Shown: positions 31,538-34,603 of the stretch, one piece after another
Layout of the letters: the number at the start of each line of letters is the position of its first letter
Position numbering within the stretch: the stretch's first letter is position 1
From: Parafrankia sp. EUN1f
GTDB taxonomy: Bacteria; Actinomycetota; Actinomycetes; Frankiales; Frankiaceae
Reading direction: 5' to 3'
DNA: 64,000 nt
Assembly (NCBI RefSeq): GCF_000177675.1
Contig: NZ_ADGX01000018.1
Coordinates: forward strand, 1 to 64,000
Notes under the pieces: generated by a model
The model's database searches: none
Told to the model about the DNA's origin: nothing
The model's input: the letters and a program-made list of their open reading frames with translations, nothing else
Made by a program: the position numbers and the translations under genes

Positions 31538-32467
31538 GTGGAACTTGGCCTGTTCACCGCCTGTCTGCCGCGGCTCGGGCTCGCCGACATCGCGGCCTGG
31601 TGCGTCCGGTCGGGCTACCAGACGCTGGAGGTCGCTGCCTGGCCGGTCGGAAGCGAGCACGCTCACCAGGCCAGCCACATCGATGCCGAGAGCTTCTCCG
31701 CGGCGGAGGCGACCGCCGTCCGCAAGCTGTTGGCTCAGCACGGACTTTCCATTTCGGCGGTCAGCTACTACGGCAACAACCTTCACGCCGACGAGGACGA
31801 ACGGCGACGGACGCATGACCATCTCCGCCGCTGCGTCGATGCCGCGGCCAGGCTCGAGGTTCCGTGCGTCGGGACCTTCATCGGCAGGGATCCCTCGCGC
31901 ACCGTCGCGGCGAACGTGGAGCTCGCGGAGAAGTCCCTGCCACGGCTGGTCGATTACGCGCGGCGGCGCGATGTGCGGCTCGTCGTCGAGAACTGCCCCA
32001 TGGAAGGCTGGCACCCCGACGGGTATCCGGGGAACCTGGCCTATTCACCGGAGCTGTGGGACTGGATCTTCGATCTCGGTTTCTACCTGAACTACGATCC
32101 GTCCCACCTTTGCTGGCTCGGCATCGACCCCATCGACGCGCTGCGGCCCGCCCTGGAAGGCGGAAAAGTGCTGCATGTGCAGGCGAAGGACATCGAGATC
32201 GACGAACGGCGGCGCAGCCAGTACAGCGTTTTCGGGCGGGCGTTGGGCCGGGTGAGACCCGAGGACGTCGGCTGGTGGCGTTACCGGGTTCCGGGCCGCG
32301 GCCAGCTCGACTGGAACCGCATCATCGACGTCCTCCATGACGGGGGTTTCTCCGGGACGGTCGCCGTCGAGCACGAGGACCCGGTGTGGAGCGGTTCGGA
32401 GGAGAAGGTCAAGAGGGGCCTTGAGATCGCCGCGCGTACTCTCGGCCCGCTGGTCCTGGGCGGATGA
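31538..32467 (+). CDS. xylose-isomerase-like TIM-barrel sugar phosphate isomerase/epimerase
   Basis: 309 residues from GTG 31538 with GAAAGGG upstream. The AP-endonuclease-2 fold is shown by ELGLFTACLPRLGLADIAAWCVRSGYQTLEV, the metal ligands in RLVVENCPMEG, YLNYDPSHLCWLGIDP, VLHVQAKDIEID and TVAVEHEDPVW. Members isomerise or epimerise sugars and cyclitols, often with NAD-dependent dehydrogenases, but none is adjacent here. Stands alone, codirectional with the TPR gene 88 bp upstream. Confidence 0.88.
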   Translation: MELGLFTACLPRLGLADIAAWCVRSGYQTLEVAAWPVGSEHAHQASHIDAESFSAAEATAVRKLLAQHGLSISAVSYYGNNLHADEDERRRTHDHLRRCVDAAARLEVPCVGTFIGRDPSRTVAANVELAEKSLPRLVDYARRRDVRLVVENCPMEGWHPDGYPGNLAYSPELWDWIFDLGFYLNYDPSHLCWLGIDPIDALRPALEGGKVLHVQAKDIEIDERRRSQYSVFGRALGRVRPEDVGWWRYRVPGRGQLDWNRIIDVLHDGGFSGTVAVEHEDPVWSGSEEKVKRGLEIAARTLGPLVLGG

Positions 32468-32509
32468 TTTCTGGGCGAACCCGCCTGCCGGTCCATTCAC
32501 GGGCGGGAC

Positions 32510-32540
32510 TTGACCTCAACCTCTCTTGAGGTCCGATGCT
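32510..32540 (+). promoter_or_regulatory. MerR/SoxR-type promoter and operator of the patatin gene
   Basis: TTGACC (32510-32515) and GATGCT (32535-32540) are separated by 19 bp, the stretched spacing of MerR-family promoters. The spacer is filled by a perfect inverted repeat, GACCTCAA (32512-32519), CCTCTC, TTGAGGTC (32526-32533), close to the CCTCAA..TTGAGG boxes bound by SoxR-like regulators. The expected transcription start, about 32547, coincides with the ATG at 32548. Confidence 0.75.
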
Positions 32541-32547
32541 GGCGCGC

Positions 32548-33357
32548 ATGACCTTCTCTGCTGCCCAGGCGGTCGTGCTCGGTCCCGGTGGGATCGTCGG
32601 CATGGCGTGGCTGTTCGGGCTCGCGGCCGGGCTTCGTGACGAGGGTGTGGACCTGGCGGACGCCGACCTGATCGTGGGAACCTCCGCGGGGGCGATCGCC
32701 GGCGCGGCGCTGGCCTCCGGCGGTGATCTCCGGCGGCTGGCGGCGCCTCCCGAGTCGTCCGGACCGTGGCGCCGGCCAGATCCCGATCTCATGGCCCGGG
32801 TGCGGGCCCTCCTCGGTGATACCGGGCTGGCGCCGGCGGAGGCCCGCCGCCGCGTCGGCCGGCTCGCGCTCACCGCGCCCACCATCGCGCAGGACGAACA
32901 TGTGGCCTCGATGGAGTACCTGGTCGGTGCCGGCGACTGGCCGGACCGCGCAATGCTGATCACCACCGTGGATCTCGATAGCGGTGAGCCCGTGGTGTGG
33001 GACCGCACCAGCGCCGCTCCGCTGGCGAGAGTGGTGGCGGCGAGCTGTGCGATGCCCGGTGCCTATCCGCCGGTCACGATCAACGGCCGTCGTTATATCG
33101 ACGGAGCCCTCGCAGGGGGATCCCATCCGCATCTTGCCGCCGGGGCGAAGACGATTGTCCTGGTAGAGCCCTTCGGGGTCGACTCGGGCGAGGCGCCGGT
33201 GCCTGGCACCCGCACCATCGGAGTCGTCCCCGACGATGCAGCGCGCGTGGCCATCGGCACGGATGTGGGCGACCACACCCGTTGGGTACCGGCCTTCGAG
33301 GCGGGCCTGCGACAGGCCCCGGCGGCCGCCGGGCGAATTCGCCTTCCGGTCCCCTGA
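32548..33357 (+). CDS. patatin-like phospholipase family protein
   Basis: 269 residues. Oxyanion loop GPGGIVGMAW, nucleophile GTSAG (Ser about residue 46) and the dyad Asp in RYIDGALAGG are all present, so it should hydrolyse lipid acyl esters. The frame includes an earlier ATG at 32536, but that codon lies within the predicted -10 box, so ATG 32548 (MTFSAAQAVVLGPGG) is preferred as a leaderless start. No signal peptide, so probably cytosolic. The MerR-type operator suggests induction by a stress or ligand; the regulator is not in this window. Ends 22 bp from the convergent lactate monooxygenase-like gene. Confidence 0.88.
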   Translation: MTFSAAQAVVLGPGGIVGMAWLFGLAAGLRDEGVDLADADLIVGTSAGAIAGAALASGGDLRRLAAPPESSGPWRRPDPDLMARVRALLGDTGLAPAEARRRVGRLALTAPTIAQDEHVASMEYLVGAGDWPDRAMLITTVDLDSGEPVVWDRTSAAPLARVVAASCAMPGAYPPVTINGRRYIDGALAGGSHPHLAAGAKTIVLVEPFGVDSGEAPVPGTRTIGVVPDDAARVAIGTDVGDHTRWVPAFEAGLRQAPAAAGRIRLPVP

Positions 33358-33379: not shown

Positions 33380-34603
33380 CTATCGACGGCGCAGGGCCGA
33401 AGGGCCGAGGTCGGCGATCCGTGGGTAACCGTCGACCGCCATGAGCAGGTCGGCCTCGGCAAGCAGCGAACGCAGCACGTGAACGACTCCGTCCTCGCCG
33501 CCGAGCGACAGACCGTACACATAAGGTCTTCCCACGCCGACCGCCCGGGCACCCAGCGCGAGCGCCTTGACGATGTGGTCACCGGAGCGCACACCGGAGT
33601 CGAAGACCACCGGAATCTCGCCGGCGGCCTCGACCACGTCGGGCAGCATGTCGAGCGAGGCCAGACCGCCGTTCGCCTGGCGACCACCATGGTTGGAGCA
33701 GTAGATCGCGTCGACACCACCGTCGACTGCTCGTCGGACGTCCTCGGGATGCATGATCCCTTTGAGGATCAGCGGCAGGCTGGTCATGGACCGGAACCAG
33801 GCCAGGTCCGTCCAGGTCAGGCTCGGGTTGCCGAAGGTCAGCGCCCAGGTCCCCACGGCGGCCTGGAGATCCTCTTTCGGCGGTCTGGCCAGTCGGGAGA
33901 CGAAGACCGGGTCGCTGAAGTAGTTCTCGAGTGCCAGCCCGCGCAACTGGGGAAAGTTCGATCGGGTGAGATCACGGGGCCGCCATCCCGGAACCCAGGT
34001 GTCGAGCGTGACGACAATCCCCCTGAAGCCCGCGTTCTCAGCCCGGTGCACCAGGCTCTCGGCGAGCTCACGGTCGTTGGGTGTGTAGAGCTGGAAGAAT
34101 CCCGGAGTTTCCCCGAGCTGGGACGCGACATCCTCCAACGGGTCGGCCGCGAGAGTGGAGGCGATCATGGGTACGCCGGTCCTCGCCGAAGCCCGCGCCA
34201 CCGCCAGGTCGCCGTGACCGTCCTGGGCGCACAGACCGATCACGCCGACGGGAGCCATCAGCAGCGGCGACGGCAGCGTGATCCCGCAGAGCTCGACCGA
34301 CAGATCCCGGTGGCTGCCGTCGACGAGCATCCTGGGGATCAGGCCCCAGTCGTCGAACACCGAGACGTTGAGATCCTGGGTTCGTTCGTCGCCGGCACCG
34401 CCGGCCACGTACGAGAGCAGCCACGGGTCGAGGGCCCGGGAGCCGCGTTCCTCCAGTTCGGCATAGGTCATCGGCATCGTCGGCATGATGCCGGAGAGAC
34501 CGTTCAGGTAGATCTCAAACTGGTAGTCACCGAAGTTCGCCACAGGGCTCGCCTGCTCGCTCGTAGGTGCCGAAACGTACGCCCGCACCGCCGTATCCGC
34601 CAC
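33380..34603 (-). CDS. FMN-dependent alpha-hydroxy-acid oxidase, lactate 2-monooxygenase type
   Basis: 407 residues from GTG 34603. Close to mycobacterial lactate 2-monooxygenase throughout: [123 protein letters not shown] (catalytic His/Arg), [28 protein letters not shown]. It would oxidise L-lactate or a related 2-hydroxy acid. Lies 59 bp downstream of a GntR/FadR regulator on the same strand, an arrangement typical of lactate-responsive FadR-type control. Confidence 0.9.

Follow-up and report, generated by a model that had tools for sequence, protein, structure and literature searches.

Predicted SoxR control and predicted leaderless transcription of a patatin-like hydrolase gene in Frankiaceae

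The window analysed here, a stretch of 64,000 nucleotides from a Frankia-related soil actinobacterium, carries a gene for a patatin-like hydrolase on its forward strand. The preceding gene on the same strand ends at 32467, 42 bases before a -35 element. The gene convergent with the patatin gene (33380-34603, reverse strand) was read by eye as encoding an FMN-dependent alpha-hydroxy-acid dehydrogenase or lactate monooxygenase-like protein. Between the upstream gene and the patatin start codon, the sequence of 32510-32550 has the order TTGACC-TCAACCTCTCTTGAGGTCC-GATGCT-GGCGCGC-ATG. The features of the locus are as follows:

32510-32515, forward strand: -35 element TTGACC, unchanged in every intact Frankiaceae ortholog
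32512-32533, no strand assigned: perfect inverted repeat GACCTCAA-CCTCTC-TTGAGGTC, single copy in the window, none in 100 shuffles
32514-32531, no strand assigned: SoxR box CCTCAA-N6-TTGAGG, three per genome, none for the reversed control (consensus from PMC4411124)
32516-32534, forward strand: 19-bp spacer of MerR/SoxR type, also 19 bp in G003, G007, G017/F. torreyi, G001, G029 and G377
32535-32540, forward strand: -10 element GATGCT, with A as second and T as sixth base, from sequence inspection and ortholog comparison
32536-32538, forward strand: upstream in-frame ATG, probably unused; overlaps the -10 element, with no ATG there in the G007, G001 and G029 orthologs
32548-32550, forward strand: ATG start codon, also the predicted start of transcription; ATG kept in all intact Frankiaceae orthologs
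32548-33357, forward strand: patatin-like hydrolase gene, 269 amino acids (Pfam PF01734, E 1.6e-23, 84.3 bits against a cut-off of 27.7)
32683-32685, forward strand: predicted catalytic serine codon (Ser46, within the GXSXG motif GTSAG), conserved in the ortholog alignment; GSSAG in G377
33100-33102, forward strand: predicted catalytic aspartate codon (Asp185, within the motif DGA), DG(A/G/S) across the ortholog alignment

Both the GXSXG serine motif and the DG(A/G) aspartate motif are intact in the 269-residue protein. Its only sequence match in the PDB is PlpD (PDB 5fqu, E 3.4e-5), which shares the patatin domain but is distant, the Frankia protein being a single patatin domain. Phospholipase or acyl hydrolase activity is predicted from patatin homology only. 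As a guess, the product would be a patatin-type Ser-Asp acyl hydrolase located in the cytoplasm, most likely helping the cell respond to redox-active, quinone-like compounds.

The original prediction had placed TTGACC and GATGCT 19 bp apart, with a perfect repeat around a 6-bp centre in the spacer region, and the coordinates bear out both statements (spacer 32516-32534, repeat 32512-32533). It had also called the repeat nearly the box of SoxR-like regulators. The likeness holds, but 'nearly' does not, as the half-sites are the exact consensus around the standard 6-bp centre (PMC4411124). The full CCTCAA-N6-TTGAGG box sits inside the longer GACCTCAA-N6-TTGAGGTC repeat; for comparison, the SoxR box of E. 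coli is CCTCAAGTTAACTTGAGG (PMC4411124). The repeats with 8-bp arms and with 6-bp arms are each present as a single copy in the window, and 100 dinucleotide shuffles yielded none. The classification as a stretched promoter of MerR/SoxR type stands as well, since the length of the spacer and the box are those of SoxR promoters and the box is kept before orthologs. The -10 element GATGCT lacks a leading T. Among the 140 promoters of the class-wide survey described below, only 40 have a -10 that starts with T and 100 have another base, so GATGCT can be regarded as an ordinary -10 element.

The first in-frame ATG (32536) is overlapped by the -10 element, as had been claimed, and the second ATG (32548) had been proposed as the start. 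This choice agrees with the ortholog comparison: the ATG at 32536 is missing in G007, G001 and G029, and 32548 is therefore likely to be the true start codon. In the intact Frankiaceae copies, the conserved ATG lies 6-8 bases past the -10 element. Because only 7 bases separate GATGCT from the ATG at 32548, the patatin mRNA is predicted to be leaderless, with its 5' end at or next to the A of this codon.

To the window protein, the five other intact Frankiaceae orthologs show identities of 93% (G003, a near copy of the window that adds little to conservation), 66% (G007), 66% (G017/F. torreyi), 61% (G001) and 54% (G029). F. torreyi CpI1 belongs to the same group as the window's genome, and its ortholog locus L069 is the same sequence as L077 of G017. 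In each of the five, the box has one mismatch at most, the spacer measures 19 bp and the -10 element follows the form (G/C)ANNNT (GACACT, GACGCT, CATCGT and CAGAGT). The conserved promoter spans three Frankiaceae genera. With the window's copy included, a box with at most one mismatch was present within the 220 upstream bases of all six intact copies; by chance, such a box is found in 1-11 of 20,000 random sequences, depending on the ortholog. The 38 bases of the promoter are 84% (G007) and 76% (G017) identical to those of the window, compared to 32% and 29%, respectively, for the 182 bases upstream of the promoter, which is the background level. In G001, the region is shifted by one base and matches at 22 of 31 bases from -35 to -10. 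A homolog from another family (G377) has the arrangement TTGACC-19-CAGGAT-ATG with a degenerate left half-site. The G015 copy (L080) is a pseudogene: ATC stands where the others have ATG, and its box has decayed. In G002, G004 and G009, a matching N-terminal part is missing from the copies. Broken or N-terminally truncated patatin copies were seen at L080, L078, L032 and L033.

The regulator gene had been stated to lie outside the window, and a genome search for a MerR/SoxR-family gene and for further copies of the box had been suggested; both were found. The genome encodes one SoxR equivalog, on contig C189 (TIGR01950, 186.7 bits against a cut-off of 116.9). Its four-cysteine [2Fe-2S] cluster motif CIGCGC...C is present (CIGCGCLSLRRC), and its best PDB match is E. 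coli SoxR (2zhg). The 9.35-Mb genome contains exactly three CCTCAA-N6-TTGAGG boxes, two in addition to that of the window, and no copy of the reversed pattern. All three are combined with a TTGACC -35 element and a 19-bp spacer. One of the other two precedes an NADPH-dependent FMN-reductase-like gene and one an ABC transporter gene, names that were assigned by reading the translations, with weak matches to family models and none for the short ABC fragment. The soxR gene itself (L005:1716-1740, reverse strand) also looks leaderless (TACGGT-6-ATG), and no SoxR box was evident before it.

To see how widely this arrangement occurs, 395 genomes of the class were searched for the box followed by N4-ANNNT, a gap of 5-9 bases and ATG. 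This pattern gave 140 matches, and the reversed pattern gave 0. The gap from -10 to ATG was 6 bases in 60 matches, 7 in 79 and 8 in 1 (n = 140). A soxR gene was present in 88 of the 89 positive genomes versus 224 of the 395 overall (Fisher P ~1e-24 for co-occurrence, with genomes counted as independent and kinship and genome size ignored), and in several genomes soxR adjoins such a box. The only genome of the class sample that has a leaderless CCTCAA box and no SoxR above threshold is G070 (G070:C91:2299-2335), where a second regulator could use the box or a soxR gene could have been missed.

On the basis of these sequence comparisons, it is very likely that 32510-32550 is a SoxR-controlled promoter of a leaderless patatin gene. 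The promoter might be real but read by another activator of the MerR family that recognizes the same half-sites. The 23 MerR_1-domain matches in the genome and the boxed promoter of G070 speak for this reading. We nevertheless consider it unlikely, given the presence of SoxR in nearly all boxed genomes, its adjacency to such boxes and the typical SoxR targets behind the other two boxes of this genome. Furthermore, SoxR binds exactly this box type in S. maltophilia (PMC4411124), and purified SoxR bound a SoxR site in S. coelicolor (PMC4146615). Still less probable is a leadered mRNA made from a promoter further upstream, with GAGG at 32528-32531 serving as the ribosome-binding site of the ATG at 32536 and the palindrome being incidental. 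GAGG does lie 4 bases ahead of this ATG, and read-through is conceivable from the upstream gene, which ends so close to the -35 element. On the other hand, the ATG at 32536 is not conserved, the left half-site is conserved although it would have no use in translation, the spacing to the ATG at 32548 is fixed, and no sigma-70 promoter with a 16-18-bp spacer was found in 32200-32800. It is highly improbable that the repeat, despite its position between two same-strand genes, arose by chance or forms a hairpin that terminates the upstream gene, as no T-run follows it, a terminator scan flags 32447-32463 only, it is kept where the upstream sequence differs, and it carries the exact SoxR consensus; a chance repeat is rejected on the shuffles, the genome counts and the ortholog conservation.

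For the SoxR-controlled promoter, a switching mechanism can be inferred from known SoxR biology. A dimer of the SoxR encoded on contig C189 would occupy CCTCAA-N6-TTGAGG between the -35 and -10 elements, where the 19-bp spacer, about 2 bp too long for RNA polymerase, would keep the promoter weak. Oxidation of the [2Fe-2S] cluster by a redox-active compound would then cause SoxR to distort the DNA and to align -35 with -10, turning transcription on. The transcript would begin at or beside the A of the ATG at 32548 and be translated without a leader. The patatin might either hydrolyse ester groups of quinone-like redox-active compounds, which would fit the reductases and exporters among the companion targets, or clip damaged membrane lipids, which would fit the patatin fold.

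A link between soxR and patatin genes was also found outside the Frankiaceae. In family f17 (G273, G315, G370 and G175), a perfect box lies between soxR and a divergently oriented PPOX gene that is predicted to be leaderless. A patatin homolog comes directly after the PPOX gene, and these homologs are 41-43% identical to the window protein. The same order of soxR, box, PPOX and patatin is seen in G087, with 2 mismatches in the box, whereas in G233 the PPOX gene is missing from the series of soxR, box and patatin. The six soxR-linked patatin loci are L183, L184, L185, L186, L187 and L188. L134, L058, L135 and L136, which the tree places near the clade, have no box, a point against the SoxR reading, and no box was found upstream of the Streptomyces NRRL S-337 and Planosporangium homologs. 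The patatin paralog L034-L039, which served as a negative control, has no box in any of the six genus members (best sites with 4-5 mismatches). In the tree, the soxR-linked patatins form a clade apart from the Frankiaceae clade, with boxless homologs in between. This placement suggests that patatins were recruited to SoxR at least twice; an ancestral link with later losses would be the less likely alternative. We lean towards the view that patatins recur in the SoxR response of actinobacteria as an arm not described before, taken up at least twice, once with the leaderless promoter of Frankiaceae and once with the soxR-box-PPOX-patatin divergon of another family, and that SoxR targets in the class are commonly transcribed without a leader.

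SoxR regulons of antibiotic-producing bacteria comprise exporters and redox or tailoring enzymes. The regulon of S. coelicolor consists of SCO0320ext, SCO1178, SCO1909, SCO2478, SCO4266 and SCO7008 (PMC4146615). It resembles the system proposed here in being single-step, with SoxR boxes immediately upstream of a small number of dispersed genes (PMC4146615), and its reductase SCO2478 and ABC transporter SCO7008 are the same kinds of genes as the other two box targets of this genome. In contrast, none of its six targets is a patatin, and the Frankia target mRNA is predicted to be leaderless. In the mfsA-soxR promoter of S. maltophilia, the -35 and -10 elements are 19 bp apart and have ACCTCAA-N6-TTGAGGT between them, which is a demonstrated SoxR architecture, and its soxR gene is divergent from the target, as in the soxR-PPOX-patatin loci of family f17 (PMC4411124). 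It differs in that the target is an efflux pump in a proteobacterium, and in that soxR is not adjacent in the Frankia genome. The E. coli soxS promoter shares the CCTCAA-N6-TTGAGG half-sites and the length of the centre, but the soxS product is a second regulator. Leaderless mRNAs of mycobacteria likewise have their 5' end at the start codon (PMC4633059, PMC3898074); unlike those described there, the leaderless promoter in Frankia doubles as a predicted SoxR-type switch.

The control of a phospholipase by a redox- or drug-sensing regulator had been called unusual in the original prediction. Patatins are absent from the S. coelicolor SoxR regulon (PMC4146615), and a literature search returned no relevant paper linking SoxR to a patatin target. 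Among the titles and abstracts listed, we found no SoxR work of note in Frankia, and leaderless SoxR targets were not evident among the matches listed. Very probably, the regulation is real; what would be new is the type of target, the regulatory system itself being a known one. A conserved target that is an acyl hydrolase points to ester cleavage or the repair of membrane lipids as one means by which these bacteria cope with redox-active compounds. Additionally, the tight geometry of box, -10 and ATG provides a rule for finding actinobacterial SoxR targets together with their true start codons.

Within the Frankiaceae, the same geometry was observed before genes of PPOX-class F420-dependent oxidoreductases and before one gene for an NAD(P)-binding protein, the latter identified by eye. 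In the genus g7 of this family, SoxR-type boxes precede genes of the PPOX_MSMEG_5819 type (L088, L090, L092, L102 and L096-L099), the distance from the first base of TTGACC to the ATG being 37-38 bases. A box with one mismatch, CCTGAACCTCGGTTGAGG, is common to G000:C350:21000-21026 and G003:C37:30362-30388 and might mark a further SoxR target.
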